The translations under genes and the position numbers were made by a program. From a virus, in the IMG/VR virus record IMGVR_UViG_3300029309_000304, positions 1-26,115 of that record: a DNA stretch of 26,115 nucleotides. One strand, written 5' to 3'. Position 1 is the stretch's first letter; each line of letters opens with the position of its first letter. The notes under the pieces were generated by a model. The model did no database searches. It saw only the letters and a list, made by a program, of their open reading frames with translations, and had not been told where the DNA came from. This document shows, piece by piece, positions 3,324 to 25,237 of this stretch.

Positions 3324-3351
3324 CAAAAACGATTAATTATAACGATATATA
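3324..3351 (+). promoter_or_regulatory. Putative phage late promoter, copy 1 (CAAAAA-N13-CGATATATA)
   Basis: CAAAAA at 3324-3329 and CGATATATA at 3343-3351 lie 19 bp apart start to start, in the 32-bp gap between the tape measure and protease genes. The ATG of the protease gene begins exactly 3 nt after the motif. The same two blocks with the same spacing occur at 5324 and 8572. If CGATATATA is a -10-like box, transcription would begin at or beside the ATG and give a leaderless mRNA (inference). Confidence 0.6.
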
Positions 3352-3354
3352 TTT

Positions 3355-5151
3355 ATGAAGATAGTTGAATTGATCCTAGATGACAACGAAGATTTAACAG
3401 GTATCGAAGCAATAAGTATAGTAGAAAATCCTGCAATAGAAGAAGATTTTATTGCACTCAAAGGAGAGATACTCACACTCAAAGAAGTAGATAAAGAAAA
3501 GAAAATATTATTAGGTGCTTTACTTGTACCTAACAAACCTATCTATAGAAAAAATGGTGATGAGGAATACTATATTTATTTTTCAAGAGAAACTGTAAGA
3601 AAAGCATCACAAATATATTTACAAAAAGGCAACCAGAATAATTCTACATTGGAACACCAACATACAATTAAAGGTCTTTCACTAGTAGAAAGTTGGATCG
3701 TAGAAGATTCAAAAAAAGACAAGACTGCGTTATATGGTCTTGAATATCCTGTAGGTACTTGGGTTGGTGCAGTAAAAGTAAATAACGATCAGATCTGGGA
3801 GGAGTTTGTAAAAACAGGCAAAGTAAAAGGATTCTCAATAGAGGGTTATTTTGCAGACAAAGCAGAGAGACCAAAGGATCAAACAATAAAAGACCTCGCA
3901 AAGATAGAAGAAGAAGAAGCACAAGAACTACTATCACAAGTAAAAGGGATTATTAGAAACGACAAAAGATACAAAGCAGGTAAAAGATTAATATTTGAAA
4001 GTTTTAGTGATTATCCAGATGCAGTAAAAAACAATGCAAAGAGAGGTATTGACTTAAACAAAAAAGTAAACAATAAATGTGCAACTGATGTTGGCAAAAT
4101 AAGAGCGCAACAACTGGCACAGGGCAAAGCAATTAGCGAACAAACAGTATCTCGTATGTATTCTTTCTTGTCAAGAGCAGAAGAGTATTACAAACCGGAG
4201 GACAAAGAAGCCTGCGGTACAATATCATATTTACTGTGGGGTGGTCTTGCAGGTAAAAGATATGCAGAGAAAAAACTAAAAGAGTTAGGCAAGTTAGAAC
4301 TATATAGTGAAAAGGTCAATGATGACTTTGCAATAATTAATGATAGGCTCGGTTATGCTACAAAAGAAATGGCAGAAAAAATTGCTAAAGATATTGGATG
4401 TGATGGCATACATACCCACGAGTATATGGATCAAACTTGGTATATGCCCTGCGAGAAACACGCACTAAACACAAGTCTTTACAGCGAAAAGATAAACGAT
4501 GATTTTGCTATTATAAACGACAGATTAGGATATTCGACTAGGGGAATGGCTGAAAAGATAGCAAAGGATATAGGTTGTGATGGAATACATACTCACGAGT
4601 TTGAAGATATGACTTGGTATATGCCTTGTAAACAACACGCACTTACAGAAGAACAATTCAAAAAATACAAATGTCCTAAAGGATATAGAAAAGATTATCA
4701 AAAGCATAAGTGTGTAAAGAAAGATAGTTACGCAAAAGTTGGTAAAAGAGGTGCAATAGTTAAAAGCCCTAAAGCCCCAAAATCAGACACCCCAAATCCA
4801 AACCCTAAAGGTAAAGGAAGTGCAGGTGGTAGTGCAAAGGGCAAGACAGGCGCAAAAGTAAGTGCAAGAGACAGAAAAACTTTACAAAAAAAATCAGATG
4901 ACTTCAATAAAAGATATAAAAAAAAGTTAGGATATGGCGTTACTGTTGGGCAACTTTCTAGCGTGTATCAAAGAGGACTTGGAGCATTTAATGTGAGCAG
5001 TAGTCCACGAGTGTCCAATCCTTCTCAATGGGCATTTGCAAGAGTGAACGCATTTTTATATTTAGTAAAGAACGGCAGACCACAAAATCCTAAATACACA
5101 GGTGATTTTGATTTATTACCAAAAGGACATCCAAAAAGTAAGAAAAAATGA
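3355..5151 (+). CDS. Prohead protease (XkdF-like) fused to extra C-terminal domains
   Basis: Residues about 45-170 match the XkdF-type phage serine protease family: LEHQHTIKGLSLVESWIVED near 99-118, then GTWVGAVKV near 134-142 and KGFSIEGYF near 158-166. Such proteases cleave scaffold and capsid precursors during head maturation. Three further blocks follow. Residues about 205-310 form a basic helical region with a Cys (NNKCATDVGK) and a second at KEACGTISY. Residues 316-371 and 375-431 are two copies of one domain (DDFAIINDRLGY, GCDGIHTHE, TWYMPC). Residues about 500-598 resemble a domain seen at the ends of other phage structural proteins (DUF5824-like by recall; moderate certainty). At 598 aa it is far longer than a simple prohead protease. 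The start is the ATG 3 nt downstream of the late-promoter motif. Confidence 0.8.
   Translation: MKIVELILDDNEDLTGIEAISIVENPAIEEDFIALKGEILTLKEVDKEKKILLGALLVPNKPIYRKNGDEEYYIYFSRETVRKASQIYLQKGNQNNSTLEHQHTIKGLSLVESWIVEDSKKDKTALYGLEYPVGTWVGAVKVNNDQIWEEFVKTGKVKGFSIEGYFADKAERPKDQTIKDLAKIEEEEAQELLSQVKGIIRNDKRYKAGKRLIFESFSDYPDAVKNNAKRGIDLNKKVNNKCATDVGKIRAQQLAQGKAISEQTVSRMYSFLSRAEEYYKPEDKEACGTISYLLWGGLAGKRYAEKKLKELGKLELYSEKVNDDFAIINDRLGYATKEMAEKIAKDIGCDGIHTHEYMDQTWYMPCEKHALNTSLYSEKINDDFAIINDRLGYSTRGMAEKIAKDIGCDGIHTHEFEDMTWYMPCKQHALTEEQFKKYKCPKGYRKDYQKHKCVKKDSYAKVGKRGAIVKSPKAPKSDTPNPNPKGKGSAGGSAKGKTGAKVSARDRKTLQKKSDDFNKRYKKKLGYGVTVGQLSSVYQRGLGAFNVSSSPRVSNPSQWAFARVNAFLYLVKNGRPQNPKYTGDFDLLPKGHPKSKKK
4300..4647 (+). 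repeat. Tandem duplicated 56-residue domain inside the protease gene
   Basis: Copy 1 begins at 4300 and copy 2 at 4477, with a 3-residue linker. The protein copies are identical at most positions, including DDFAIINDRLGY, MAEKIAKDIGCDGIHTHE and TWYMPC, while the DNA copies differ at many third codon positions. This is an old duplication kept by selection on the protein. Conserved Cys and His residues (GCDGIHTHE and MPC..HAL) could bind a metal, which is inference. Confidence 0.85.
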
Positions 5152-5318
5152 AACTACCAAGTTACACAAGTCCAAAAGGTGGTAGGAGAGCCTGTCTTTG
5201 CGAAGATGGTCTTACTTACAAAATAGAGTGTTGTACTGGAGAATTACACGCACAGGGCATTGGTGCGTTAAAAGGTGGTAGTAATGCCAGTATAAATGGC
5301 GTATCACGTACAGGATAA
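5148..5318 (+). CDS. Small Cys-rich 56-aa phage protein
   Basis: The ATG overlaps the TGA of the protease gene (ATGA), and the frame ends at TAA 5316-5318. The product starts MKLPSYTSPKGGRRACLCED and has four cysteines as CxC at 16 and 18 and CC at 28-29, then a Gly-rich end (HAQGIGALKGG). I recall similar tiny proteins with an RRxCLCxD...YxxECC pattern beside capsid genes of other Bacteroidota phages, where the function is unknown. The four cysteines suggest a metal knuckle or disulfide-held fold, possibly a minor head protein. The gene is absent from a standard long-ORF scan, but its coupling and composition support it. Confidence 0.65.
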   Translation: MKLPSYTSPKGGRRACLCEDGLTYKIECCTGELHAQGIGALKGGSNASINGVSRTG

Positions 5319-5323
5319 AAATG

Positions 5324-5351
5324 CAAAATAAATTTTAAAAAGCGATATATA
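5324..5351 (+). promoter_or_regulatory. Putative phage late promoter, copy 2 (CAAAAT-N13-CGATATATA)
   Basis: CAAAAT at 5324-5329 and CGATATATA at 5343-5351 fill the 36-bp gap before the scaffold-like gene, whose ATG starts 3 nt after the motif. Block spacing (19 bp) and distance to the ATG equal those of copies 1 and 3. It would drive the scaffold, decoration and major capsid genes, ending at the terminator at 7336-7371. Confidence 0.6.
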
Positions 5352-5354
5352 GTT

Positions 5355-5963
5355 ATGAAAGCGACAGAAGTATTAAAACAAGTGAAAAACATTCTTGGAG
5401 TTGAGTTATCTGATATTCAATTAGCAGAACTTAAATTAGAGAATGGAACTGTTTTGGAAGCGGAAGTTTTCGAATCAGGCAAAGAAGTTTTTATTAAAAC
5501 GGAAGATGAAAAAGTTGCTCTACCTGTAGGAGAGTACGAACTTGAAGACGCTAGAGTTCTTGTTGTTGAGGAAGAGGGAATGATTAAAGAAATCAAAGCC
5601 CAAGATGAAGAAGAAAAGGAAGATGAAAAAGAAGATGACAAAGAGGAAATGAGATACGTAACAAGAGAGGAATTTCGTAAGGAAATGGATGAATTAAAAG
5701 ATATGGTTGAAAAAATGATGAAGCCAGAAGATAAAGAAAAAATGTCATCCCAGATCCAAGAAGAAGTATCTTTAGCAGTTACAGAGGTTTTAAATAGCGA
5801 AGCACAAGAAAAAGAGGCTCTTAAAGAAGAGTTATCTCAACCTGCTGCCGAGCCACTTAAACATAGTCCTGAACAAGAAAAGACTAGTAGAGGATTCAAG
5901 TTTGCACAAAACAGAAGGATGTCTACATTAGATAGAGTAATGGAACAAATAACAAATAAATAA
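5355..5963 (+). CDS. Scaffold-like / head assembly protein
   Basis: This 202-aa, very acidic protein has an N-terminal part (about 1-80) that looks like a small beta domain (LKLENGTVLEAEVFESGKEV, then GEYELEDARVLVVEEEG). A run of Glu, Asp and Lys follows at about 82-97, and a coiled coil with many Met and Glu continues to about 170. The C-terminus is basic (GFKFAQNRR). An acidic coiled-coil middle with a basic end that could contact the capsid is typical of phage scaffolding proteins, and the gene sits between the protease and the major capsid gene, the usual scaffold position. The protease product may cleave it. The family is assigned by position and composition, not by a diagnostic motif. 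Confidence 0.6.
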   Translation: MKATEVLKQVKNILGVELSDIQLAELKLENGTVLEAEVFESGKEVFIKTEDEKVALPVGEYELEDARVLVVEEEGMIKEIKAQDEEEKEDEKEDDKEEMRYVTREEFRKEMDELKDMVEKMMKPEDKEKMSSQIQEEVSLAVTEVLNSEAQEKEALKEELSQPAAEPLKHSPEQEKTSRGFKFAQNRRMSTLDRVMEQITNK

Positions 5964-5975
5964 ATATAAATAATT

Positions 5976-6395
5976 ATGGCAGTTTTAACACACGTTAATA
6001 ATGATGTTGTAAGAATAAAAAATGATGTTGATGCAGTATCAGCACAAGTTACTCTTACATCAGCAGACAGCGGTAAATGGTACGAACTTGCTGCATCAGC
6101 AGGAGTTACAGTAACATTACCAGCAGTAGAATCTGGACTTAATTTTAGATTTGTTGTAGCAAACGCATTTGATACATCAAATTATATAATTGACAGTGCA
6201 GAAGGAGATAATATAGATGGGATTTTAGTAGTAAATGGTGCATCTGTAGCGGCTTCAGGAGAAGACCAAATTAACTTTGTAGCATCAGCAGAATCAGTTG
6301 GCGATTTTATCGACATCTGGTCAGATGGTAACAAATGGTATGTTTGGGGAATCGGAAACGCAGCAGGTTCAATTACAGCTACTGATCCAAGTTAA
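5976..6395 (+). CDS. Probable head decoration or small structural protein
   Basis: The 139-aa product is almost free of charged helices and rich in Ala, Val, Ser, Thr and Asp, with alternating hydrophobic strands (SGKWYELAASAGVTVTLPAV and FIDIWSDGNKWYVWGIGNAA). This looks like a compact beta sandwich. It has no signal peptide, Cys or membrane segment. It lies 12 bp after the scaffold-like gene and 26 bp before the major capsid gene, a place where many phages encode a head decoration or stabilising protein. A short fibre-like attachment protein is the main alternative. The spacers around it are A/T-rich with tandem AAAT repeats and no Shine-Dalgarno. Confidence 0.5.
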   Translation: MAVLTHVNNDVVRIKNDVDAVSAQVTLTSADSGKWYELAASAGVTVTLPAVESGLNFRFVVANAFDTSNYIIDSAEGDNIDGILVVNGASVAASGEDQINFVASAESVGDFIDIWSDGNKWYVWGIGNAAGSITATDPS

Positions 6396-6421
6396 TAAAT
6401 AAATAAATAAATAAAAGAGAT

Positions 6422-7318
6422 ATGGCTACTACAACAAGTATAACAACCACATACGCAGGAGAGTTCGCAGGTGAATATATCGCAGCAGCTCTATTGAGTG
6501 GGGTTACATTATCACAGGGTGGTGTTAGTATTAAACCTAACATCAAATTCAAAGAGGTTATCAAAAAATTAGCATTAGATAGTATTCTAAAAGATGCTAG
6601 TTGTGATTTTGATCCAACCTCAAACGTAACATTAACAGAAAGAATCTTACAACCAGAGGAGTTTCAAGTAAACTTACAACTTTGTAAAAAAGATTTCAGA
6701 CAAGATTGGGAGAGTGCATCAATGGGCTTTAGTCAATATGACAATCTACCAAGAAAGTTTTCTGATTTCTTGATTGCTCAAGTTGCAGCAAAAGTTGCAG
6801 AAAAAGTAGAGCAAAACATTTGGTCAGGTGCTACTGCTAACGCAGGAGAATTTGATGGGTTTACTGCTCTATTGACAGCAGATAGTGATGTTGTTGATGT
6901 TTCTGGAACTACACTTACAGCAGCAAACATAGTTGCAGAATTAGGAAAAGTAGTAAATGCAATTCCAAGTGGAGTTTACAACAAAGAGGATTTAAAGATT
7001 TATATTCCTACAAGTGCAGCAAAGTTTTATATTCAAGCACAAGCAGCACTAGGTTATAGAGAACTTTATAACGTTGGTAAAACAGAAATGAACTTTCAAG
7101 GCATTCCATTATTTACAGCTCCAGGATTAGGTGCTGACAAAATGGTTGCAGCTGAATCTTCAAACCTATTCTTCGGAACTGGTCTATTAAACGACTGGCA
7201 AGAAGTTAAGTTGATTGATATGGCAGACATTGATGGATCACAAAACGTAAGAGTTGTTTTAAGAGGAAGTGCAGGGGTACAACACGGCATCGGATCAGAT
7301 ATTGTATTGTATTCTTAA
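6422..7318 (+). CDS. Major capsid protein
   Basis: The 298-aa protein fits a HK97-fold major capsid protein in length and layout. It has a flexible Thr/Ser/Ala N-terminus (MATTTSITTTYAGEFAGEYI), a long helical segment with Lys-rich turns around 115-140 (SDFLIAQVAAKVAEKVEQNI, as in the HK97 spine helix), and a C-terminal beta-rich domain ending DIVLYS. Two Cys lie near 61 and 83. The gene follows protease, scaffold-like and decoration-like genes and is closed by a strong hairpin terminator, as expected for the most highly expressed gene. It should form the icosahedral shell. The assignment rests on position, length and general architecture; no single catalytic motif exists for this family. Confidence 0.75.
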   Translation: MATTTSITTTYAGEFAGEYIAAALLSGVTLSQGGVSIKPNIKFKEVIKKLALDSILKDASCDFDPTSNVTLTERILQPEEFQVNLQLCKKDFRQDWESASMGFSQYDNLPRKFSDFLIAQVAAKVAEKVEQNIWSGATANAGEFDGFTALLTADSDVVDVSGTTLTAANIVAELGKVVNAIPSGVYNKEDLKIYIPTSAAKFYIQAQAALGYRELYNVGKTEMNFQGIPLFTAPGLGADKMVAAESSNLFFGTGLLNDWQEVKLIDMADIDGSQNVRVVLRGSAGVQHGIGSDIVLYS

Positions 7319-7335
7319 TATTGTTTAACATAAAG

Positions 7336-7371
7336 AAGGTAGGTGGGGTATATGCCTACTTACCTTTTTTT
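7336..7371 (+). terminator. Rho-independent terminator after the capsid gene
   Basis: A 12-bp stem (7336-7347 with 7355-7366, two G-U pairs) encloses a 7-base loop GTATATG and runs directly into a T tract ending at 7371. It starts 18 bp after the capsid stop codon. It should end or strongly reduce transcription between the capsid and tail tube genes. Confidence 0.85.
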
Positions 7372-7386
7372 ATAAAATTTTAAATT

Positions 7387-7911: not shown

Positions 7912-7927
7912 TTTTAGTATTTTGAGT

Positions 7928-7959
7928 AAAGAAAGGGGGCTTATGTCCTCTTTTTTTTT
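7928..7959 (+). terminator. Rho-independent terminator after the tail tube gene
   Basis: A 13-bp stem with several G-U pairs (7928-7940 with 7945-7957) closes a TTAT loop and is followed by T-rich sequence that continues almost unbroken to about 7991. It begins 16 bp after the stop codon of the tail tube gene and marks the left border of the gene-free region. Confidence 0.8.
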
Positions 7960-7983
7960 GTCTTTTTTTTATTTTTTTTTTAA

Positions 7984-8002
7984 TTTTTTTTAAAATATTT
8001 TA
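7984..8002 (+). repeat. 19-bp direct repeat, left copy
   Basis: Eight T then AAAATATTTTA. An identical 19-bp copy lies at 8501-8519, so the two frame the structured RNA region. The sequence is low in complexity, which weakens the case for a functional pair. Confidence 0.7.
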
Positions 8003-8040
8003 CAGAGGTAGAGCAAAAAATATTACGATTTTTATTAAAA

Positions 8041-8074
8041 AATGTCAATTATATTAAAAAGTTTCGTATATTAG
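8041..8074 (+). promoter_or_regulatory. Possible promoter of the non-coding RNA
   Basis: TATATTAG at 8067-8074 is one base away from the Bacteroidota -7 box TAnnTTTG. AATGTCAAT at 8041-8049 lies in the -33 region and resembles the ATTGNCAAT elements at 18221 and 22374. Transcription would begin near 8080, just before the first stable hairpins. No better promoter is visible in the T-rich sequence to the left. Confidence 0.4.
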
Positions 8075-8079
8075 CTATG

Positions 8080-8504
8080 TAATAATAATTACAACGATCA
8101 TTAAAATACTAATAAAAGGGTAAAACTTGGTAAATACAAACCCTGATTTAAGTGAGATTTAAATTATAGGTTTTGCAAAAACGATTGAGTCGAAGGATAA
8201 CGAAATGGGGGTTAGAGTCCCCCCACCGCTTACACGGTTGTGGTCAAATTGTAACGACACGGAAAGTTTTAAAAAAGTAGAATTCATTATTTGATTTTTT
8301 ATAACTACGACATTGACAAAAAGGCGTTGCCAAGCGAGGTTGAGAAAGTGTTAGGACACAAAGCATATCTCAAAAACTCATTAATGCGTTGGAACGGGAA
8401 TAATGTAGAGAATATCTAAATTATTCGGAAGTCGGCAACAACGATGAGGTTATAAACTAATTGTTGAAGTTTTATATTAACCTAATAACGCGCCTCGCCT
8501 TTTT
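8080..8504 (+). ncRNA. Large structured non-coding RNA of unknown family
   Basis: No ORF of useful size lies here, yet base pairing is dense. In order: AGGG 8117-8120 with CCCT 8141-8144; ATTTAA 8146-8151 with TTAAAT 8159-8164; GGGGG 8207-8211 with CCCCC 8219-8223, closing a TTAGAGT loop; ACCG 8225-8228 with CGGT 8235-8238; TTGAGA 8340-8345 with TCTCAA 8368-8373, enclosing GTGT-TAGG-ACAC 8348-8359; GAATAAT 8398-8404 with ATTATTC 8420-8426, stacked on TAGA/TCTA 8406-8418. GTTGCC 8326-8331 pairs with GGCAAC 8434-8439 around the last two. AAAAGGC from 8319 can pair with GCCTTTT ending at 8503, so the whole 3' domain would be closed and followed by a T tract. I do not recognise the family. A giant phage RNA of the GOLLD or ROOL kind is the closest known concept, but I cannot show homology. 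Boundaries are estimates. Confidence 0.55.
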
Positions 8505-8519
8505 TTTTAAAATATTTTA
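8501..8519 (+). repeat. 19-bp direct repeat, right copy
   Basis: It is identical to 7984-8002 and begins in the T tract that ends the RNA. The offset between copies is 517 bp. Beyond the repeat the flanks share only a vague CAG..GTAG pattern. Confidence 0.7.
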
Positions 8520-8530
8520 AATATACAGTA

Positions 8531-8563
8531 GCCCTATTCTATTTCCGAGTGGGGTTTTTTTTT
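8531..8563 (+). terminator. Weak terminator-like hairpin
   Basis: GCCC at 8531-8534 can pair with GGGG from 8551, which is followed directly by nine T (8555-8563). The stem is short and the loop long, so this is a weak terminator. It may back up the T tract at 8500-8508 before the late promoter at 8572. Confidence 0.35.
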
Positions 8564-8571
8564 CACCTATA

Positions 8572-8599
8572 CAAAATCGTGTTAATATTTCGATATATA
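8572..8599 (+). promoter_or_regulatory. Putative phage late promoter, copy 3 (CAAAAT-N13-CGATATATA)
   Basis: CAAAAT at 8572-8577 and CGATATATA at 8591-8599 show the same 19-bp spacing as copies 1 and 2, and the ATG at 8603 again follows after 3 nt. It would drive the portal operon (8603 onward). Confidence 0.6.
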
Positions 8600-8602
8600 A
8601 GT

Positions 8603-8968
8603 ATGAAGGTTTTGACAACGAGTAGTTCTGCACAGAATATTGATGTAATACCAAGAACATACGCATCATCATATACTTTGAAGTTAAGAGATACAAGTAA
8701 GAACAAAGAAGTATTTTCATCAAGTGTAAGTGCTTCTGCCAATGGCAATTTTAAAAGATTGTCTGCAACTTTTAGCCCTGTATTAAAAGAGGGTAGATAT
8801 TATGATATGAGTTTGATAAGTGGTAGTGCAACTGTTTATAAAGACAAAGTATTCTGCACAGATCAGACCATCAATCAAGCAAACAACAATCATTATGATA
8901 TAAATAATGGACAGTTTACATTTGATGAAACATCAGGATCACACGATAACGATTACATAATAGTATGA
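8603..8968 (+). CDS. Hypothetical structural protein before the portal
   Basis: The frame is open from 8549, but the ATG at 8603 is chosen because it stands exactly 3 nt after the late-promoter motif, as at two other genes; this gives 121 aa beginning MKVLTTSSSAQNIDVIPRTY. The protein is rich in Ser, Thr and aromatic residues with beta-like alternation (YTLKLRDTSKN, RYYDMSLISGSATVYKDKVF) and ends with an acidic tail (SGSHDNDYIIV). It resembles small Ig-like or fibre-attachment proteins of Bacteroidota phages in general character only. Its TGA overlaps the ATG of the portal gene, so the two are translationally coupled. It is first in the portal operon, so a minor virion protein is likely. Confidence 0.6.
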   Translation: MKVLTTSSSAQNIDVIPRTYASSYTLKLRDTSKNKEVFSSSVSASANGNFKRLSATFSPVLKEGRYYDMSLISGSATVYKDKVFCTDQTINQANNNHYDINNGQFTFDETSGSHDNDYIIV

Positions 8969-10800
8969 ACGATTTAAGAGTTATAAATTTAAGTAGTTAC
9001 ACCACACCAAAAGTTGTTGAATACAAAAACAAAGAATGGATAGGGTATGGCGATGATAACAATTACTTTAAATATCTTATTGACAGATACAACGGAAGTC
9101 CAACAAACAATGCTATTGTAAATGCTATCTCTGCTATGATTTACGGAAAAGGTTTAGATGCTACAGATAGCAATAGAAAACCAGAGGAGTATGCAAAGAT
9201 GATTTCTTTATTTAATAATGATTGTATTAGAAAACTTTGCTATGATTTAAAGTTAATGGGACAATGCTCAATACAAATCATCTATTCAAAAGACAGAAAG
9301 ACAATCGCACAAATAGAGCATTTTCCAGTTGAGACATTACGAGCAGAAAAGTCTGGAGAGGATGGAGAAATAAATGCTTATTATTATTTTCACGATTGGG
9401 CAGAATACAAACCACAAAGCAAACTAAAAAGAATACCTGCCTTTGGTAAGAGTAACGAATCAATAGAAATATTGTATGTCAAACCTTATAGAGCAGGGTA
9501 TCATTATTATAGTCCTGTAGATTATCAGGGTGGTTTACAATACGCAGAATTAGAAGAAGAAGTAGGTAATTTCCATTTGAATAATATTATGAATGGTATG
9601 TCTCCAAGTATGTTGATCAACTTTAACAATGGTGTGCCAAACGAAGAAGAAAGAGAACTTATTGAACAAAGAATATCACAAAAGTTTTCTGGTAGTAGTA
9701 ATGCAGGTAAATTTATTTTAGCTTTCAATGACAATGCAGACACGGCAGCAAGTATTGATCCTGTTCAATTATCAGATGCACACCAACAATATCAGTTCTT
9801 GAGTGAAGAAAGCACAAGAAAAATTATGGTCGCTCATCGTATTGTATCTCCTATGCTTATTGGTATCAAAGACCAGTCAGGACTAGGTAACAACGCAGAT
9901 GAATTAAAGACTGCATCTATATTACTAGACAATACAGTTATCAGACCTTTTCAACATTTATTGATAGACTGTTTTGACAAAATATTGGCATATAACAAGA
10001 TTTCACTCAATCTTTATTTTAAGACGCTACAACCACTTGAATTTACAGACTTGAGCAATGTAGAAGATGAAGAAACGAAAGAGGAAGAAACAGGCGTTAA
10101 ATTAAGCGAGGAGCCTTGCTGCGTTAGTTTAGGAAGTGATTTAGACAAATACATAGACAATGATGTTGCAGATGCTTTGATAGATCTGGGAGAAGATGAG
10201 AACGAGTTGTTAGAAAAATACGATGTAATAGATGAGTTTGAGGTAGATTACGAAACAGAAAACGAACTAGACCAAAAGATTGCTGAACTGAACGAAAAGA
10301 CAGAACTCGCAAACACGGGAAGTGCAAAACCATACAGAGATAGTAAGCAAGATGGCAAGTCCAAAAAGAAAGGACAAGAAGATGTCATCTATTTAGTAAG
10401 ATATATGTACACACCATATAGTGGTGCTTACAAAACAAGAAAAGGCAGGTCAAGAGAATTTTGTATCAAAATGATGAACGCAAAGAAAGTTTATCGTAAA
10501 GAGGATATAAAGGCAATGGATAACAAAGTTGTTAATGCAGGATTCGGTAAGAGTGGTGCAAGCACATATTCTATATGGCTTTATAAAGGTGGTGCAAGAT
10601 GCAATCACAGATGGACTAGAAGAATATATGCAAGAAAAGAAGGCAACAAATCTTTAGGTGATGTGGTTAGTACAACAAGTGCGATAAAGAAAGGTTTTAG
10701 ACCAGAGAAAAATGCAAAGAAAGTATCAATAGCACCTCGTAATATGCCCAACAAAGGATTTACGGCAGCATATTGGAATAAAATGGGATTTAAAAATTAA
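8965..10800 (+). CDS. Portal protein with extra C-terminal domain
   Basis: Portal proteins form the dodecameric ring through which DNA enters and leaves the head. Residues about 1-355 have portal character: NNAIVNAISAMIYGKGLD, a MGQCSIQIIYSKD strand pair, a segment HLNNIMNGMSPSMLINFNNG, then STRKIMVAHRIVSPMLIGIK and a long helix ending in the clip and wing region. A very acidic linker spans about 370-450. Residues about 473-611 form a separate basic domain with TRKGRSREFCIKMMN, a YKGGARCNHRW motif near 541 and Arg/Lys-rich sequence. A similar Cys-His-Trp domain occurs, as far as I recall, at the ends of other phage head proteins (MuF-like or protease-linked); its function is unknown. A fusion is uncommon for a 400-500 aa portal. 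Confidence 0.8.
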   Translation: MNDLRVINLSSYTTPKVVEYKNKEWIGYGDDNNYFKYLIDRYNGSPTNNAIVNAISAMIYGKGLDATDSNRKPEEYAKMISLFNNDCIRKLCYDLKLMGQCSIQIIYSKDRKTIAQIEHFPVETLRAEKSGEDGEINAYYYFHDWAEYKPQSKLKRIPAFGKSNESIEILYVKPYRAGYHYYSPVDYQGGLQYAELEEEVGNFHLNNIMNGMSPSMLINFNNGVPNEEERELIEQRISQKFSGSSNAGKFILAFNDNADTAASIDPVQLSDAHQQYQFLSEESTRKIMVAHRIVSPMLIGIKDQSGLGNNADELKTASILLDNTVIRPFQHLLIDCFDKILAYNKISLNLYFKTLQPLEFTDLSNVEDEETKEEETGVKLSEEPCCVSLGSDLDKYIDNDVADALIDLGEDENELLEKYDVIDEFEVDYETENELDQKIAELNEKTELANTGSAKPYRDSKQDGKSKKKGQEDVIYLVRYMYTPYSGAYKTRKGRSREFCIKMMNAKKVYRKEDIKAMDNKVVNAGFGKSGASTYSIWLYKGGARCNHRWTRRIYARKEGNKSLGDVVSTTSAIKKGFRPEKNAKKVSIAPRNMPNKGFTAAYWNKMGFKN

Positions 10801-10803
10801 GGG

Positions 10804-14248: not shown

Positions 14249-14256
14249 TATATTTG
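14249..14256 (+). promoter_or_regulatory. TATATTTG, host-type -7 box candidate
   Basis: TATATTTG fits the Bacteroidota -7 consensus TAnnTTTG exactly and lies 14 bp before the ATG of the next gene, in the 28-bp gap before the lysis block. The -33 partner is poor (TTA at 14225-14227, 21 nt upstream). It could supply extra transcription of the lysis genes. Confidence 0.35.
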
Positions 14257-17609: not shown

Positions 17610-17746
17610 CTTGTGCAACCTAATAAAGTTGGAAGGCACTTGGATCAGGTAAATATAGTTTTGTTTTTTGGAGAGGGATTTTTTCTTTTTCTTTTCTTTT
17701 GTCCTTTTCTTTTCTTTTTCTTTTGTATTTAGATATATTTGACAAC
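17610..17746 (+). promoter_or_regulatory. Leader region with 46-nt pyrimidine tract
   Basis: This 137-bp stretch holds no ORF on either strand that I trust. GTGC and GCAC within its first 30 bases can pair. From 17679 to 17724 the + strand is all T and C except one G at 17701, with repeated CTTTT units. A second TATATTTG (17734-17741) stands 5 nt before the GTG start of the NinG-like gene, again without a -33 TTG. Confidence 0.45.
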
Positions 17747-18215: not shown

Positions 18216-18244
18216 TGGATATTGACAATATTTAATTATCTTTG
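18215..18244 (+). promoter_or_regulatory. Early promoter, Bacteroidota type TTG-N19-TATCTTTG
   Basis: TTG at 18215-18217 and TATCTTTG at 18237-18244 are 19 nt apart, an excellent match to the Bacteroidota housekeeping consensus TTG-N17-23-TAnnTTTG. Transcription would start near 18250, 10 bp before the ATG at 18261. ATTGACAAT, a 9-bp palindrome, lies between the two boxes at 18221-18229, a position where a bound repressor would block polymerase. It should drive the replication operon. Confidence 0.75.
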
Positions 18245-18497: not shown

Positions 18498-18498
18498 T

Positions 18499-19064: not shown

Positions 19065-19065
19065 A

Positions 19066-19645: not shown

Positions 19646-20556
19646 TGCTTATAAACTTTGAAGATCATTTAGACAAACTTGAACTAATAAGGACAGGCAA
19701 ACTAAATGAAGCACCAAAGATAGGCATTGAAGAAATAGATAGTGTAATACGATTCAAAAGAAATCTTACTTGTTTTGCAGGACACGCAAACGTAGGAAAG
19801 ACATCTGTCATTATTTATTTTATGTTACTTTTTGCGATGAAACATAAGATAAAGTTCTTAGTATTCAGCTCTGAAAACGAGCCACACTCTTTGATTAGAA
19901 GATTGATAGAGTTCAAATCCCAGAAACCTATAAACAAACTATCAAAAGAAGAACTTGATAAACATACAGAGTTTGTCTATGATCATTTTAAATTTATAGA
20001 CTGTGAACAAAATTATGATTATTTAGATTTACTATCTTTGTGTGAGGTGGTTATGCCACAGTATGACTTTGACTGTTTAATTATTGATCCGATAAACAGT
20101 CTGAGAAAGAATAAAGGAATGATGAAGTTTAGTAATGCTTTTGAATATTTGTATGAGTGTATGACAGACTTTAGAATATTTGTTAAAAAATACAACAAAG
20201 GTTTGTGGTTAGTGATGCATTCGGTTACTGAAAGTTTTAGAAAAAGATACAATAACAATCACGAATACGCAGGACACCCCATACCTTTGGCGATGTCTGA
20301 TGTAGAGGGTGGTAATGTTTTTGGTAACAGAACAGATGATTTTTATACAATCCATAGAATGACACAACACGAATCAAGATGGATATATACAGAACTGCAT
20401 TGTAAGAAAATTAAAGACCACGATTTAGGTTGTAAGCCAACACCTTTTGATAGTCCTCTAATTCTAGAAAGCATAAAGAACAATGTAGGATATAAGTTGG
20501 GAGATAAAGACATACACCGACCAAACATTATAGAACAATTAAGAATGCCATTTTGA
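19645..20556 (+). CDS. DnaB-like RecA-fold helicase/ATPase
   Basis: The 303-aa protein has the RecA-type core of replicative helicases: Walker A GHANVGKT at 46-53, Walker B as DCLIIDPINS at 143-152 (DP in place of DY/DE), and a HSVTE sensor-like strand near 191. A VFGNRTDDFYTIHR segment near 225-238 matches the family's arginine-finger and linker region. It lacks the primase-contact N-terminal domain of DnaB, so it is a core-only helicase or a KaiC/Twinkle-like ATPase. No primase is seen in the window. It is translated together with its neighbours (1-4 bp overlaps). Confidence 0.8.
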   Translation: MLINFEDHLDKLELIRTGKLNEAPKIGIEEIDSVIRFKRNLTCFAGHANVGKTSVIIYFMLLFAMKHKIKFLVFSSENEPHSLIRRLIEFKSQKPINKLSKEELDKHTEFVYDHFKFIDCEQNYDYLDLLSLCEVVMPQYDFDCLIIDPINSLRKNKGMMKFSNAFEYLYECMTDFRIFVKKYNKGLWLVMHSVTESFRKRYNNNHEYAGHPIPLAMSDVEGGNVFGNRTDDFYTIHRMTQHESRWIYTELHCKKIKDHDLGCKPTPFDSPLILESIKNNVGYKLGDKDIHRPNIIEQLRMPF

Positions 20557-21032
20557 AGACACAAGTAGAGATAGCATACGATAGGCACGAAAAGTGGATG
20601 GAGATTACAAGAAGTTTTGGAGGTCTGAGAGAAACAGAGGTTGAGGATATAGTGCAAGAACTATACCTTTTGCTAATAAAAAATACACAAAAAGGCATAG
20701 ATTTTAGTTATGGAGATTGCGATATTAATTACTATTACTGTTTTAGAATATTAAGAGGTTTGTATGTTGACCTGTTACGAAAAAAAATGAAAGTAACTTA
20801 CACAACTTTAGAAAACATACAAATAGAGGATGAAGGTACAGTAAACTATGATGAAGTGTATGGAAAGATACAACAAGCTCTAAAACAAATATATTGGTAC
20901 GATGCAAAGGTATATGATATTGTAAGTGGTGGAGAAAGCATAAGTGAACTATCTAGAAAAAGTCAAATAAGTTATTACTCACTATACAATACTTTTAGAA
21001 ACGTAAAGAAAAAACTGAAAGAACTAATATGA
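20553..21032 (+). CDS. Sigma-70-region-2/4-like protein, paralogue 1
   Basis: The 159-aa protein has two sigma-like parts. Residues about 25-78 hold ETEVEDIVQELYLLLIKN and INYYYCFRILRGLYVDLLRK, the EDIVQExFLxLW...FRIaRNLxxDxLRK pattern of sigma region 2. Residues about 125-159 (GESISELSRKSQISYYSLYN, then FRNVKKKLKEL) form a helix-turn-helix like region 4. The acidic spacer between them is short, as in ECF sigmas and T4 gp55-like phage sigmas. The start is a TTG overlapping the helicase stop (TTGA). It could be the late-promoter factor for CGATATATA (inference). The next gene is a clear paralogue. Confidence 0.6.
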   Translation: MKTQVEIAYDRHEKWMEITRSFGGLRETEVEDIVQELYLLLIKNTQKGIDFSYGDCDINYYYCFRILRGLYVDLLRKKMKVTYTTLENIQIEDEGTVNYDEVYGKIQQALKQIYWYDAKVYDIVSGGESISELSRKSQISYYSLYNTFRNVKKKLKELI

Positions 21033-21622
21033 AAAAACAAAACACAATTATAAAACAAATATTTAGAGACAAAAATAAATGGTTGAACATCATAAAATCA
21101 TTTGGGACAAAGAAAGACATTGCAGAAGAAATATTCTGTTGTATGATTGAACAAATATATAAGAGAATCTGTGTTGGACTTGACATATCTTACGGCACAG
21201 GATATAATTATTGGTATGTCTTTAGGAGTTTGCGTGGTCATTTTATTGATTTTTTGCGAAAAGAAAAGTTAAGGAATAAATTACATATTAGAATTGACAC
21301 TAACGGAGAATATTGTTTGCTGTATGATTACACTCAAAAACACAGGACAAATTTTCCTGTAAGATTACAAGCACCAAAACATATAGATTATCAAAATTTA
21401 TACAAAAAAAGTTTGTCTATAATTGAACAAGTACAAAAAACTAATAGTAATTTATACAAAATAAAAAGACATTTTGAAATATACAAACAAATCGATGATG
21501 GAGAAATGACAATAAGTGAATATGCAAGATTAAAGAAATTGCCATACTACAGATGTTACTCCTCTTATAAAATTTCAAAAAAATTATTAAAAGAAAAAAT
21601 ATGCGAATTGGAGATAAATTAG
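21029..21622 (+). CDS. Sigma-70-region-2/4-like protein, paralogue 2
   Basis: The 197-aa product aligns with the preceding protein over both halves: IAEEIFCCMIEQIY (region 2.1-2.2 like), YNYWYVFRSLRGHFIDFLRK (region 2.3-2.4 like) and GEMTISEYARLKKLPYYRCY followed by a Lys-rich helix (region 4 like). It is longer because of an insertion of about 35 residues between the two parts and a longer basic N-terminus. The tandem paralogues arose by duplication and then diverged strongly. One may serve as sigma and the other as a co-activator or antagonist. Its ATG overlaps the stop of paralogue 1 by 4 bp. Confidence 0.6.
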   Translation: MKKQNTIIKQIFRDKNKWLNIIKSFGTKKDIAEEIFCCMIEQIYKRICVGLDISYGTGYNYWYVFRSLRGHFIDFLRKEKLRNKLHIRIDTNGEYCLLYDYTQKHRTNFPVRLQAPKHIDYQNLYKKSLSIIEQVQKTNSNLYKIKRHFEIYKQIDDGEMTISEYARLKKLPYYRCYSSYKISKKLLKEKICELEIN

Positions 21623-21807
21623 AATATATAATAAACATCATTACATTTGGTACAGGCAAAGACATTGCACAATGGATCGCAACAAAATTAGGATATGAAG
21701 ATTGTGGATGTGATGATAGAAAAAATTGGTTAAATGGAATCACAAGAACTAGAACAAAAACTAAACAAAGAAGAATATCAAAAGTGGACAAAATTCAAAG
21801 GAATTAA
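21601..21807 (+). CDS. Small CGCD-motif phage protein
   Basis: The 68-aa product reads GDKLEYIINIITFGTGKDIA, then KLGYEDCGCDDRKNWLNGIT. The core GD.ie...k.tg......a...EDCGCD.RK..LN recurs, by recall, in small proteins of many Bacteroidota phages, with unknown function. The CxC pair beside acidic residues may hold a metal. The C-terminal 20 residues are basic and overlap the next gene, so the true functional part is probably residues 1-50. It starts inside the end of the second sigma-like gene. Confidence 0.6.
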   Translation: MRIGDKLEYIINIITFGTGKDIAQWIATKLGYEDCGCDDRKNWLNGITRTRTKTKQRRISKVDKIQRN

Positions 21808-21973
21808 AAGCAGTCAAATCAACAAACAAGAACAAGAGCTGATTGCATCTTTACATTCTAAATATTTTTACCATAATTTCTATTTGCCCTGTGGATGTTC
21901 TCCCAGAACTTGGAATCAATGGATAGCAGACATAAATAAATTATACGCAGGTGGGTTTAGAGACAATAAATAG
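21734..21973 (+). CDS. Small Cys-containing phage protein (PCGCSP motif)
   Basis: The 79-aa product contains IASLHSKYFYHNFYLPCGCS followed by a Trp/Ile-rich helix (WNQWIADINKLYAGG). The pattern LH.kYF.H.fY.PC.CSp...WI..iN.LY recurs in small genes of other Bacteroidota phages as I recall them; no function is known. The two Cys and two His could bind zinc. The N-terminal 30 residues overlap the previous gene out of frame and are Glu/Lys-rich, so an internal start cannot be excluded. The gene overlaps the nuclease-like gene by 23 bp. Confidence 0.6.
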   Translation: MESQELEQKLNKEEYQKWTKFKGIKSSQINKQEQELIASLHSKYFYHNFYLPCGCSPRTWNQWIADINKLYAGGFRDNK

Positions 21974-22364
21974 ATTTGAAAAGATAGTAGTAAAATTCTT
22001 GAATGAGTTTGAGGATTGGAATTTAAAATGGTCAGAAGGTAAGTTTGAACATTATGACGCATCAGGCACGACACCAAAAGGACACAGGTGCGTAATGGAA
22101 ATGAAGTTTAGAAACAAATACTATGAAGAAAAGCTATTAGAAAAATACAAGTATGACAAACTTATGCAGATGGATAGTGAGATTGTAAAACTTTATTTTG
22201 TATCTGATCCCAAAGGCACTTATTTATATTGGATCAACTATTTAGATATGCCAGAGGTTAAAGAGTTGTACTGTCCTGATACTACATTCTGGACTAAAAA
22301 GAAAAAACTAAAACAGGTTTATTTACTCACGGAAGATATGGCATCAATCGTACACAAAGAGTAG
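21951..22364 (+). CDS. PD-(D/E)XK-like nuclease fold protein
   Basis: The 137-aa protein begins with GTG at 21951 inside the previous gene. It contains the restriction-fold pattern D...ExK: HYDASG near 40 and CVMEMKFRNKYYEEKLLEKY at about 48-67, where E and K of EMKFR would be catalytic with the Asp of YDASG. Downstream strands (VKLYFVSDPKGTYLYWINYL) and WTKKKK fit a small nuclease core with a basic DNA-binding end. It may act in recombination, host DNA breakdown or defence. The family name is uncertain; a structure prediction should settle it. Confidence 0.5.
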   Translation: MGLETINRFEKIVVKFLNEFEDWNLKWSEGKFEHYDASGTTPKGHRCVMEMKFRNKYYEEKLLEKYKYDKLMQMDSEIVKLYFVSDPKGTYLYWINYLDMPEVKELYCPDTTFWTKKKKLKQVYLLTEDMASIVHKE

Positions 22365-22373
22365 TTATTAGAT

Positions 22374-22403
22374 ATTGTCAATTATTATTTGTATATTGTC
22401 AAT
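22374..22403 (+). promoter_or_regulatory. Promoter/operator region with two ATTGTCAAT sites
   Basis: ATTGTCAAT, a 9-bp palindrome, occurs at 22374-22382 and 22395-22403, 21 bp apart (two helical turns). TATATTG at 22392-22398 is a near match to TAnnTTTG and overlaps the second site. The same palindrome with A in the centre sits in the early promoter at 18221. This suggests a shared repressor; the next ATG is at 22416. Confidence 0.45.
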
Positions 22404-22415
22404 AAAATTATAATT

Positions 22416-22577
22416 ATGTACTACAAATGCGAAACAAAAGAAAAATTAAATTCATATTTAGATAATCCTGATTTTGTTATATACGATGTTTATGGAGATA
22501 AACCTAATTCAAAGACCTACAAACTTGGTTTGGGTAGTTGGGTTGTATCAGGATATTTTAAGTCTGAATATAATTAG
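22416..22577 (+). CDS. Small hypothetical protein (53 aa)
   Basis: The frame is open from 22389, but the ATG at 22416 lies just after the promoter/operator region and is the likely start. The product begins MYYKCETKEKLNSYLDNPDF and contains YDVYGDKPNSKTYKLGLGSW then VVSGYFKSEYN, a compact alpha-beta pattern with no known motif. Having its own regulatory region suggests a regulatory or host-directed role, which is inference only. A strong hairpin starts on the last base of its stop codon. Confidence 0.5.
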   Translation: MYYKCETKEKLNSYLDNPDFVIYDVYGDKPNSKTYKLGLGSWVVSGYFKSEYN

Positions 22578-22602
22578 GTTTGTTCGCATGGCGAACATAA
22601 CC
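22577..22602 (+). promoter_or_regulatory. Hairpin TGTTCGC-ATG-GCGAACA, extended
   Basis: A perfect 7-bp inverted repeat (22581-22587 with 22591-22597) around ATG is extended by GGTT/AACC with one bulged T, giving 11 pairs and a 3-base loop. No T tract follows, so it is not a classic terminator. It lies between two small genes and could be an operator, an mRNA processing or stability element, or a binding site for a phage protein. Confidence 0.55.
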
Positions 22603-22623
22603 GTTTAACTTAAAAATAAAATT

Positions 22624-22788
22624 ATGGCAAAGAATAATCATTTTCCAATAGAAAATCAAGTTACAAATGATTGTAGAAAAAAAATACAAGAAGAAAAGGT
22701 AATCGAATTTTTAACAAAGAACAGAGTAATATTAGCACAACTAGGATATGAGATCAAGAAGAAAGAAGTATCTAACATATCTGAATGA
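22624..22788 (+). CDS. Small hypothetical protein (54 aa)
   Basis: The frame begins ATGGCAAAG at 22624 and ends TGA 22786-22788. The product (MAKNNHFPIENQVTNDCRKK; then a helix EEKVIEFLTKNRVILAQLGY) has one Cys and a predicted helical C-terminal half. It follows the hairpin with a 21-bp A/T-rich leader. No family is recognised. The next frame overlaps its last 41 bp. Confidence 0.5.
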   Translation: MAKNNHFPIENQVTNDCRKKIQEEKVIEFLTKNRVILAQLGYEIKKKEVSNISE

Positions 22789-22975
22789 TAATTATTTCTA
22801 CGAGATTGGATATGTAAAAAAAGAAAGCAAACTTAAAAACATACAAATGAAAAAACAATACAATCAGGGCAGAAGTCCTAGACAAGAGGAACGGACATAC
22901 CAAACATTAAAACTTGCATTTATACTATTTGTTGTATCAATGAGTGCTTATTGCTTTATAAGTATATGGATATAA
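22748..22975 (+). CDS. Small protein with C-terminal membrane segment
   Basis: The 75-aa frame from ATG 22748 ends with a hydrophobic stretch (LKLAFILFVVSMSAYCFISI, about 54-73), so the product is a tail-anchored membrane protein with a basic cytoplasmic part (NQGRSPRQEERTYQ). An alternative ATG at 22847 would give 42 aa and remove the 41-bp overlap with the previous gene; both are plausible. The stop overlaps the ATG of the next gene. Function unknown. Confidence 0.5.
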   Translation: MRSRRKKYLTYLNDNYFYEIGYVKKESKLKNIQMKKQYNQGRSPRQEERTYQTLKLAFILFVVSMSAYCFISIWI

Positions 22976-23217
22976 AAGAAAAACAAGAGTTTGAATTGGC
23001 ATTTAATTATATAGGTCAAGCAATGGCTACTGCTTTTGAAAAAGCAAGTCCAGAACGAAAAAAACAGATTGGTTTGTTTATAAGTTGCATCAACAAGATG
23101 TATAAATACACCAACAGAATCGAAACAGAATTAATATTAAAACAAACAAATAATGATACAACTTTTGGACGGAAAAAATTACTCCAAGAAAGAATTGCTG
23201 AAAAAAATGGTAGATGA
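22966..23217 (+). CDS. Small helical hypothetical protein (83 aa)
   Basis: The ATG at 22966, inside the last codons of the previous gene, is preferred over an upstream TTG at 22951. The product is helical and charged (IKEKQEFELAFNYIGQAMAT; ERKKQIGLFISCINKMYKYT) and ends in a basic tail that overlaps the exonuclease gene by 65 bp. The last 20 residues therefore may be constrained by the other frame. No family is recognised; its place before the exonuclease hints at a recombination accessory role, but nothing more specific can be said. Confidence 0.5.
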   Translation: MDIKEKQEFELAFNYIGQAMATAFEKASPERKKQIGLFISCINKMYKYTNRIETELILKQTNNDTTFGRKKLLQERIAEKNGR

Positions 23218-23920
23218 CTCGTTTTACTATGGAGAACTAAACAAATTAGCATTAAGCAGTTCATCACTAAAACTATTACTATCAAGTCCTAAAACATATA
23301 AGTATGTTACAGAATACGGAAGTCCAGAAACCCAACCACTGCGGGATGGTAGATTGGTACATCAAGCGATCCTAGAGCCACAAAAATTTAGCGAACAAAT
23401 ATTTGTAAATGTATCTTCCAAGAACACAAAGACATACAAAGAAGCAAGAGAAAAATATGGTGAGGTATATACAAGAGTAGAAAAAGAAAACGCAGAAAAG
23501 ATAGCAGATGCTTTTTTTAAGAATGAACACGCATTAAAACACATTACAGACTGTGAGTTTGAGGCATCAGGCATAGGTACGATACAAGGTTATCCATTTA
23601 GAGGTAAAGCAGATGTGTTAAGAAAAGATGGAATCACAGACATCAAGACCACAACAGACATAAAAGGTTTTCCATATTCAGCAAAAAAATATTCTTACGA
23701 TGTTCAATGTTATATATACTGTCAGCTCTTTGATGTAACATATTTAGACTTCAAGTTTGTAGTTATAGACAAAGGATCATTAGACATAGGTGTATGGAAT
23801 TGTAGTGAAGAGTTTTATTTGGAAGGGGAACGAAAAACAAAAGAAGCAATACAAGTATTTGAAAAGTTCTTTATAGAAGGAAAAGACATAGATAACTATA
23901 TAATAGAGGGAATATTATGA
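23153..23920 (+). CDS. PD-(D/E)XK exonuclease, RecE/ExoVIII-like
   Basis: The 255-aa protein matches the phage exodeoxyribonuclease VIII-like PD-(D/E)XK group: LALSSSSLKLLLSSPKTYKY near 32-51 (the family start), LRDGRLVHQAILEP near 63-76 with a His, and YPFRGKADVLR at 147-157 followed by GITDIKTT at 160-167. D154, D163 and K165 form the nuclease triad, and a YDVQCYIYC helix near 182-190 completes it. It should digest one strand of duplex ends for recombination. The start at 23153 keeps the usual N-terminal IQLLDGKNYSKKELL region; an ATG at 23207 is the alternative. Confidence 0.8.
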   Translation: MIQLLDGKNYSKKELLKKMVDDSFYYGELNKLALSSSSLKLLLSSPKTYKYVTEYGSPETQPLRDGRLVHQAILEPQKFSEQIFVNVSSKNTKTYKEAREKYGEVYTRVEKENAEKIADAFFKNEHALKHITDCEFEASGIGTIQGYPFRGKADVLRKDGITDIKTTTDIKGFPYSAKKYSYDVQCYIYCQLFDVTYLDFKFVVIDKGSLDIGVWNCSEEFYLEGERKTKEAIQVFEKFFIEGKDIDNYIIEGIL

Positions 23921-24765
23921 AAACAACCAAACACATATTTGGTTTCCCAACTGAAGAAATAATGCAGATTTTAAGAAAAAACAACAATAACAAAATATAT
24001 TATAAACATTCTAAAAAAGCAGTAAAAAAACATATTTTAGATGCTGATATAAATTACAAAGAGAAAAAAAGTTTATTTAAAAAATTTAGAGAATCAGAAT
24101 GGTTTTATGACAAAATACATATTGACATCAGAGATAGTTCACCACAATATTTTGAAGAAAGAGTTAGTATACAGTTTTACAGAGAAGAATTAAGTTTTAG
24201 TGGAGAATTTTATCCTACACAATTATACACAGACAGAATATCATTTGAAGTTAACAGACAAAATGATTATAAATGGCTAATTGATTGTATTGAAACTGAA
24301 ATAAAAAATAAAAAATATTTTTTAGATTTACAAAATTTGTTTTTTTGGATTTTAGAAAAAAAGGACACTTATAATAAATACCAATTTATTAGGTCAATAA
24401 GTACACAAAATCGATTAGAAAAAGAATTAAATGAATGGAAACAGTATTTATATGAGGGTAGAATTAAAGTCATATCAAAAAAAGAAAAAAAAGATATAGA
24501 AAAACAAAATGAAGAGGTAATAAATAAAAAAACATATATACTAAAAGATAAAAATACAGGATATTATAAAATAGGTAGATCTTCAAACCCTCTTAATAGA
24601 GAAAAAACATTACAATCAGAGAAACCTACATACGAGTTGATTAAAATATTCAATAATGACATAGAAACAAAACTGCACAAAAAGTATAAGAAACAAAATG
24701 TAAGAGGAGAGTGGTTTGATTTATCCAAGATACAGCTCAAATATATATGCACAAATTATAAATAA
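23917..24765 (+). CDS. T5orf172/MUG113-domain protein with unknown N-terminal domain
   Basis: The 282-aa protein has a C-terminal domain at about 205-282 with KTYILKDKNTGYYKIGRSSN, LNREKTLQSEKP and IETKLHKKYKKQNVRGEWFD, the pattern of T5orf172/MUG113 domains, relatives of GIY-YIG nucleases. In this group the GIY-YIG motifs are YIL...YYKIG, and a HKKY...GEWF end is typical. Residues 1-200 form a charged, Lys- and Tyr-rich domain I do not recognise. It is noticeably richer in AT and Lys/Asn than its neighbours, which may mean recent arrival. It overlaps the exonuclease gene by 4 bp. A DNA-binding or homing-type role is possible. Confidence 0.65.
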   Translation: MKTTKHIFGFPTEEIMQILRKNNNNKIYYKHSKKAVKKHILDADINYKEKKSLFKKFRESEWFYDKIHIDIRDSSPQYFEERVSIQFYREELSFSGEFYPTQLYTDRISFEVNRQNDYKWLIDCIETEIKNKKYFLDLQNLFFWILEKKDTYNKYQFIRSISTQNRLEKELNEWKQYLYEGRIKVISKKEKKDIEKQNEEVINKKTYILKDKNTGYYKIGRSSNPLNREKTLQSEKPTYELIKIFNNDIETKLHKKYKKQNVRGEWFDLSKIQLKYICTNYK

Positions 24766-24766
24766 T

Positions 24767-25165
24767 ATGAGTAAAGCAGATAAGATAGCAAAAGAAATAA
24801 GTAAGAAAGCAAACGTAGATGTATTCCAGAATACAAGAAAAAAAGAAGTAGTAGAAGCAAGATCACTACTATCATTTATATTATACAAATACGAAAAGAT
24901 GACACTACAAGAAATAGGCAATCTATTCAAACAAAAAGGTAGATCAGGCAATCATACAACAGTATTACACTCAATAAAGAGCTTTGAAACGCATAAAAAA
25001 TACAACAGTAGAATACAAGATTGGTTGTTAGACATCACACTCAAACTCAAAGACCTAAACAACGATGCAAAGAGAGAGTTCATAAAACACAAGGTAAACT
25101 TTCTTAAAAATAAAGATGTTGATAAGATTGCAAAGCAAGTAGATAAAATGACACAAAATAAATAG
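24767..25165 (+). CDS. DnaA domain IV-like DNA-binding protein
   Basis: The 132-aa product (ATG 24767, chosen over an upstream extension) contains the origin-binding domain of DnaA without the AAA+ part: RKKEVVEARSLLSFILYKYE at 24-43, MTLQEIGNLFKQKGRSGNHT at 45-64 and HTTVLHSIKSFE at 63-74, matching REVVEAR...SL.EIG..FGGRDHTTVLHA. The TTVLH recognition helix is intact. An insertion (KQKGRSGN) replaces the usual short loop. A free domain IV could mark the phage origin, compete with host DnaA or regulate transcription. The next 72 bp are AT-rich and could be an origin. Confidence 0.75.
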   Translation: MSKADKIAKEISKKANVDVFQNTRKKEVVEARSLLSFILYKYEKMTLQEIGNLFKQKGRSGNHTTVLHSIKSFETHKKYNSRIQDWLLDITLKLKDLNNDAKREFIKHKVNFLKNKDVDKIAKQVDKMTQNK

Positions 25166-25237
25166 TCAGCAAAAATTAATTAAATTTTACGATATATAGA
25201 TATACAAAAGATTAATTAATTAATTTAAATTAATTCT
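25166..25237 (+). promoter_or_regulatory. AT-rich intergenic region, origin candidate
   Basis: The 72-bp gap holds tandem TTAA/TTAATTAA motifs on both sides of the late-promoter copy (TTAATTAA at 25176-25183; repeated ATTAATTAATTAATT from 25210). It directly follows the DnaA-domain gene. An unwinding element or binding array is possible, but no typical DnaA box was seen. Confidence 0.3.
25170..25198 (+). promoter_or_regulatory. Putative phage late promoter, copy 4 (CAAAAA-N14-CGATATATA)
   Basis: CAAAAA at 25170-25175 and CGATATATA at 25190-25198 are spaced 20 bp start to start, one more than in copies 1-3. Here the first ATG follows 39 nt later (25238). This copy shows that the motif is not simply a ribosome-binding feature. 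It would drive the terminase operon. Confidence 0.5.

Follow-up and report, generated by a model that had tools for sequence, protein, structure and literature searches.

A two-block sequence motif, CAAAAW-N13/14-CGATATATA, precedes assembly and packaging operons in the IMG/VR virus record IMGVR_UViG_3300029309_000304, which was analysed over a window of 26,115 bases that starts inside a tail gene and stops inside terL. Comparison with related records supports the motif as the promoter of the late genes in a large, mostly marine family of siphophages that infect Bacteroidota. Very probably this promoter is read by a phage extracytoplasmic function (ECF)-like sigma factor, here termed sigA, with a start on the ATG of the first gene and leaderless first cistrons. 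Somewhat less firmly, we think it likely that throughout the virus family the virion genes are leaderless by way of this dedicated sigma, and that its specificity was rewired several times at residues 69 and 73, with all late promoters rewritten each time, those of acquired terminase modules included.

In the proposed mechanism, sigA would bind the host core RNA polymerase. CAAAAW at -35 would be recognised by its region 4 helix, and C(-12)G(-11)A(-10)T(-9)ATA at -10 by its region 2, where residue 73 would be directed to base -11 and residue 69 to base -10. The box is set exactly 12 bp 5′ of the first-gene ATG in the protease, scaffold-capsid, pre-portal and, in relatives, tail operons. Transcription would begin on the A of this ATG, giving first cistrons translated from leaderless mRNA. 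The terminase operon would use the same promoter with a leader of ∼36 nt.

Promoter sites in the window

Four copies of the two-block motif are present in the window, all on the plus strand, where the chance expectation is 0; none of 100 window shuffles had even one two-block match, and the exact box CGATATATA is found in the window at these four sites only. Late promoter 1 (3324-3351, +) is CAAAAA-N13-CGATATATA, with a predicted +1 at 3355, the A of the ATG of the protease/tail-side operon. Late promoters 2 (5324-5351, +) and 3 (8572-8599, +) are both CAAAAT-N13-CGATATATA; their predicted +1 positions are 5355, at the ATG of the scaffold-like gene ahead of the capsid gene, and 8603, at the ATG of the pre-portal gene. 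Late promoter 4 (25170-25198, +) is CAAAAA-N14-CGATATATA and lies 5′ of a small-terminase-like gene, with a predicted +1 at 25202. A first-pass annotation of the window had reported these four sites, with N13 at 3324, 5324 and 8572 and N14 at 25170, and had stated that the box ends 3 nt before the ATG at the first three. Both statements are borne out, the ATGs being at 3355, 5355 and 8603. At promoter 4, the ATG of the small-terminase-like gene is 39 nt past the box.

Conservation and restriction to late operons

Relatives were gathered by a portal search of IMG/VR, which yielded at least 80 loci. A lineage-specific position weight matrix (PWM) was then run on both strands of 35 records (the window and 34 relatives; 800,295 bases). 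The three known promoters were matched 90 times. At training strength there were three matches elsewhere, every one at late starts, and there were none on the reverse strand or in Markov shuffles. Weaker matches are mostly at terminase and tail promoters, with a few within coding sequence (sigA of lineage B, see below). In agreement with the first-pass annotation, the two-block motif is not found ahead of replication genes in the window, nor at training strength in the relatives (∼800 kb), and equal numbers of hits in coding or early regions were not seen.

In front of the protease, scaffold and pre-portal genes, the -35 block, refined to (A/G)CAAAAW, and the -10 block are kept while the intervening bases diverge; CTAAAA or TCAAAA is found at one promoter type. 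Conservation before homologous genes is thus seen despite diverged spacers. Non-first genes of late operons are without the motif, and none was found on checking the sequence directly 5′ of the major capsid-like gene (6422). Relatives of all lineages have a fifth late promoter, 5′ of a tail-operon gene of ∼216 amino acids downstream of terL; it is not in the window because the contig ends before that point.

The -10 box is of type CGATATA in lineage A, CGTTATA in lineage B, TTATATA in lineage C and mostly NATTATA in lineage D. While the box varies between lineages, the -35 block stays the same, as does the spacing of 12 nt from box to ATG; throughout lineages A, B and C, CAAAAW is conserved at -31/-30. 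Within a genome, the -10 type of the lineage is present at every late promoter examined (up to five). Among close relatives, three unrelated TerL modules have been swapped in the terL region (records G001, G002, G010, G014, G015, G007 and G009), and where such a terminase module has passed from one lineage to another, the promoter in front of it is of the resident lineage's -10 type. The same applies to a ParB-like gene in lineages B and C. The resident type in front of exchanged modules points to a resident trans-acting factor as the reader of the -10 box.

A phage-specific late promoter, as the first-pass annotation had proposed, is therefore supported: the motif is confined to late operons, is conserved before homologues with diverging spacers and is altered in concert across lineages. 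The late timing of transcription is presumed. Chance resemblance, or plain vertical conservation of non-functional DNA, might come to mind since these AT-rich genomes contain many TATA-like words, but this explanation has virtually nothing left to it. The blocks persist across differing spacers, and the lineage-specific change recurs at separate sites. The window expectation and the shuffle and reverse-strand scans led us to reject a chance origin.

A second possibility is that the blocks are a variant host RpoD promoter or a Bacteroidota translation-initiation element, and not phage-specific. The phage genomes are rich in A and T, and in Bacteroidota A-rich upstream contexts take the place of the missing Shine-Dalgarno sequences (PMC6847099). 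The Bacteroidota RpoD -7 element is TAHHTTTG (PMC6847099), and boxes of this host type, not the late motif, precede the early-side genes 14271, ninG and 18261. The phage thus uses the host box before early genes, whereas the late box differs from it and varies in type by phage lineage. A host RpoD promoter was rejected on the ground that late boxes do not fit the -7 element. As to a ribosome signal, a -35 block at -31 cannot serve as one, the motif is absent from non-first operon genes, and a T at -1 and a C at -12 are unlike a Kozak-like context. Both versions of this alternative are very improbable.

Predicted start site and probable leaderless mRNA

The -10 box starts exactly 12 nt 5′ of the ATG in 241 of 251 distinct upstream sequences from four genes (protease 55/56, scaffold 56/58, pre-portal 71/74, tail 59/63), and the T at -1 is invariant. 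In the register of the ECF sigma SigH (G-11 T-10 T-9), +1 falls twelve bases past the C of CG(A/T)TATA; together with the 12-nt spacing, this puts the predicted +1 on the A of the ATG. TA-like signals ∼10-12 bp 5′ of the start codon are taken as a mark of leaderless bacterial genes (PMC3160421), and the late promoters have their -10 box at this distance. The prediction of leaderless late mRNA is well supported by these comparisons. The first-pass annotation had proposed that late proteins are made from leaderless mRNA; the 12-nt distance, the T at -1 and the structural register support it, with an exception at the terminase operon and its predicted 36-nt leader. The supported scope is four of the five late operons, and within each operon a leaderless state is possible for the first cistron only.

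It might be argued that a phage sigma reads the promoter while transcripts start a few nucleotides upstream, or are processed, to give leaders of ∼1-6 nt. Sequence cannot fix the start position to the base, and a few relatives have ATATG after the box, which would give a 2-nt leader. The constant distance in 241 of 251 upstream sequences, the invariant T at -1 and the SigH register, which sets +1 on that A, argue against such leaders, and we regard them as unlikely.

In Deinococcus-Thermus and Actinobacteria, leaderless genes have a -10 element 10-12 bp before the start codon (PMC12340547, PMC3160421). Those genes are cellular, whereas the present case is a virus regulon in Bacteroidota. In F. 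johnsoniae, 87% of transcripts with a probable promoter have leaders of >10 nt (PMC6847099).

The candidate reader sigA

The sigA gene (20553-21032, +) encodes an ECF-like sigma factor with sigma2, a flexible linker and sigma4, and is the proposed reader of the late promoter. Residues are numbered from the TTG start, and G69 and D73 are the proposed base readers. A sigA homologue is found in every record of ∼20 kb or more. A profile of 22 sigA proteins compared with PDB matched sigma2 of SigR (1h3l; E 0.0011) and SigE (E 0.002). The structural model has helical domains at 4-86 and 99-158 and a low-confidence linker at 82-97; its top fold matches are ECF sigmas, with TM-scores of ∼0.4, which may come from a different domain arrangement. 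Between lineages A, B and C, identity is 74-77% in the putative region 4.2 helix, paralleling the constant -35 block, and 32-46% in the region 2.3-2.4-like stretch, paralleling the variable -10 block. The earlier suggestion that the promoter is read with a phage factor is supported by comparative evidence, covariation and module exchange included, which points to sigA as the best candidate; its binding to host core RNA polymerase is predicted.

Two residues and the -10 box

A rule relating sigA to its promoters was first noticed by eye; alignment columns were ranked next, and the SigH structure paper was compared afterwards. All 62 distinct sigA-promoter pairs follow this rule: base -11 varies with residue 73, and base -10 with residue 69. 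A D at residue 73 accompanies CG, an N accompanies TT and a Q accompanies TA. Where the third base of the box is A, residue 69 is G; where it is T, residue 69 is S, T or N. Via an alignment with SigR, residues 73 and 69 fall on the equivalents of SigH N92 and N88. In the M. tuberculosis SigH open complex, N92 contacts base pair -11 and N88 contacts base -10 (PMC6411747). This structural agreement carries much of the weight for the two-residue rule.

The rule was tested on promoters not used for finding it, namely the protease, scaffold and pre-portal promoters of 12 further records. These conform, with qualifications for lineage D and for one phage in a metagenome-assembled genome (MAG). Lineage D has A-11 in 10 of 11 sites and T-10 in all 11; base -12 varies freely there, as would be expected if residue 73 reads -11. 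The MAG phage is the single distant relative that a scan of genome contigs gave, in a Bacteroidetes MAG. Its sigma is 29% identical in the aligned part and has S69 and D73, and the predicted CGTTATA was found before its protease and pre-portal genes; the upstream sequence of its scaffold gene is without a box. In the cultured Nonlabens phage P12024L (Inhavirus), the sigma has N69 and D73 and the promoter box is CGTTAATA.

Several points weigh against sigA as reader through these two residues. Window sigA scores 13.6 bits against Pfam Sigma70_r2, under the 24-bit cut-off; its P12024L homologue, gp35, scores 25.2 bits, over the cut-off. Column 40 of sigA separates the bases found at -10 just as cleanly as residue 69, so residue 69 is not singled out by covariation alone. 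With 5 changes of type on the tree, and 2-4 independent pairs, a sign test is underpowered and significance unreachable; statistics by independent pairs are weak because the changes on the tree are few. In lineage D, the protease promoter of record G038, TGTTATA, violates the residue-73 rule. Finally, P12024L keeps the -35 block though its region 4 helix is strongly different.

Another protein might read a promoter that is truly leaderless, sigA having some other role: sigB (21029-21622, +), the protein with a DnaA domain IV encoded at 24767, or a modified host sigma. sigB is a diverged sigA-like paralogue directly after sigA. It keeps the G69- and D73-like residues, and its putative recognition helix differs; because of this difference it may read another -35 sequence. 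The DnaA-domain-IV protein has a helix-turn-helix and adjoins the terminase promoter. Nevertheless sigB is present in few of the records searched (L315, 49%), whereas sigA is in every long record of every lineage, and on this ground sigB was rejected as a universal reader. Moreover, covariation with the -10 bases falls at the two sigA positions whose SigH counterparts touch these bases, and the rule held in a phage whose sigma has only 29% identity in the aligned part. A reader other than sigA is improbable, slightly more so than short leaders.

Comparison with known systems

Salmonella phage 7-11, of the phiEco32 group, has a sigma factor, SaPh711_gp47, that reads late promoters of the form GTAAtg-16-aCTA; its relative phiEco32 has a different promoter and its own sigma (PMC8948821). 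Phage 7-11 and the present phages have in common a small phage sigma that turns host RNA polymerase to a two-block promoter before late genes (a function predicted for sigA), and here too a shared two-block promoter is restricted to late genes. The motif, host phylum and phage family differ. In addition, the box is here fixed 12 bp from the ATG, and its type shifts by lineage together with the two sigma residues 69 and 73.

ECF sigmas such as SigH (PMC6411747) share the sigma2-linker-sigma4 arrangement, and the C-G-T-T of lineage B has the G-11 T-10 T-9 of SigH. Unlike SigH, sigA is phage-encoded, the -35 block is CAAAAW and not GGAACA, and the -10 box evolves among CGA, CGT, TTA and NAT; no anti-sigma came to light, though none was looked for.

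The first-pass annotation had drawn a comparison with T4-type late promoters. These consist of one TATA box, and gp55 resembles sigma70 in domain 2 only (PMC2988020). An AT-rich TATA box at -10, late genes and a small sigma-like protein are shared, whereas the present phages have a conserved -35 block and a sigma4-like domain. The comparison holds as an analogy only: the two-block form and the sigma2-sigma4 match are closer to phage 7-11, and a T4-type late promoter was rejected in view of the block CAAAAW.

In the cultured relative P12024L, several genes are preceded by ACAAA(A)-N13/14-CGTTAATATA, and gp35 is a sigma-70 region 2 protein. This phage differs in its box, CGTTAATATA, in a portal identity of 36% and in a sigma only 26% identical. 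A tblastn search of sigA and gp35 against cultured phages gave nothing besides the P12024 pair, and the record of Polaribacter phage P12002L has no sigma annotated.

Phage sigmas that redirect host RNA polymerase to two-block late promoters are already known, phage 7-11 being an example (PMC8948821). No paper on late promoters of Bacteroidota phages was found in the literature searched. As far as that literature goes, what is new is such a system in Bacteroidota phages, the tie of promoter to start codon over most of the late regulon, and promoters that changed together, more than once, in step with two sigma residues. Bacteroidota phage regulation has been little studied. If the account given here is correct, it identifies, for a group that is very common in IMG/VR, the late regulon together with its factor and start sites, and virion proteins would be made by leaderless translation in a phylum where most cellular genes have leaders. 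It would also offer a natural series of sigma-promoter pairs in which specificity shifted at two positions and the whole regulon followed. Such a natural record of a sigma factor and its regulon changing together would make the mechanism of the switch directly testable, and the system is carried by a cultured phage, P12024L.

Genes behind the promoters and other features

The first gene of operon 1 is a head maturation protease open reading frame (3355-5151, +; Peptidase_S78_2/XkdF, E 1.4e-13). It has extra C-terminal domains, two DUF3721 repeats and DUF5824, which in some relatives are in separate frames or absent. The capsid operon begins with the scaffold-like gene (5355-5963, +; phrog_24921, E 9e-7), and the major capsid-like protein is at 6422-7318 (+; phrog_11320, phrog_1623). 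The pre-portal gene (8603-8968, +), first in the portal operon and conserved in relatives, starts at an in-frame ATG within a listed open reading frame, and is followed by the portal protein (8965-10800, +; phrog_33693, E 3e-117). Between the capsid-operon terminator and late promoter 3 are ∼600 nt without a clear gene (7961-8565), which have their own T-run at the end. This stretch is absent in most relatives, where the gap from mtp to the pre-portal gene is ∼90 nt. For the non-coding segment 8070-8520, a comparison with Rfam gave no match and folding was weak only (z -1.4).

Downstream of promoter 4 is the small-terminase-like gene (25238-25486, +). The predicted 36-nt leader of the terminase mRNA (25202-25237, +) contains the palindrome ATTAATTAATTAAT at 25211-25224. 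An inverted repeat is found at the equivalent place of the terS leader in lineages A, B and C, in relatives in the form TTGATTAATCAA; this palindrome is possibly an operator or a terminase binding site. Adjoining the terminase operon, at 24767-25165, is the protein with the DnaA domain IV DNA-binding domain (E 3.6e-10), which is without an AAA+ domain.

On the early side, a host-type -7 box, TATATTTG (14249-14256, +), is 5′ of gene 14271 and is kept in all eight lineage-A records checked. Another, TATCTTTG (18237-18244, +), is 5′ of gene 18261, where the replication/recombination block begins. A further TATATTTG box, at 17734-17741, is 13 nt 5′ of the ninG start and is kept in several relatives; it would likewise yield a nearly leaderless mRNA, from a host promoter.
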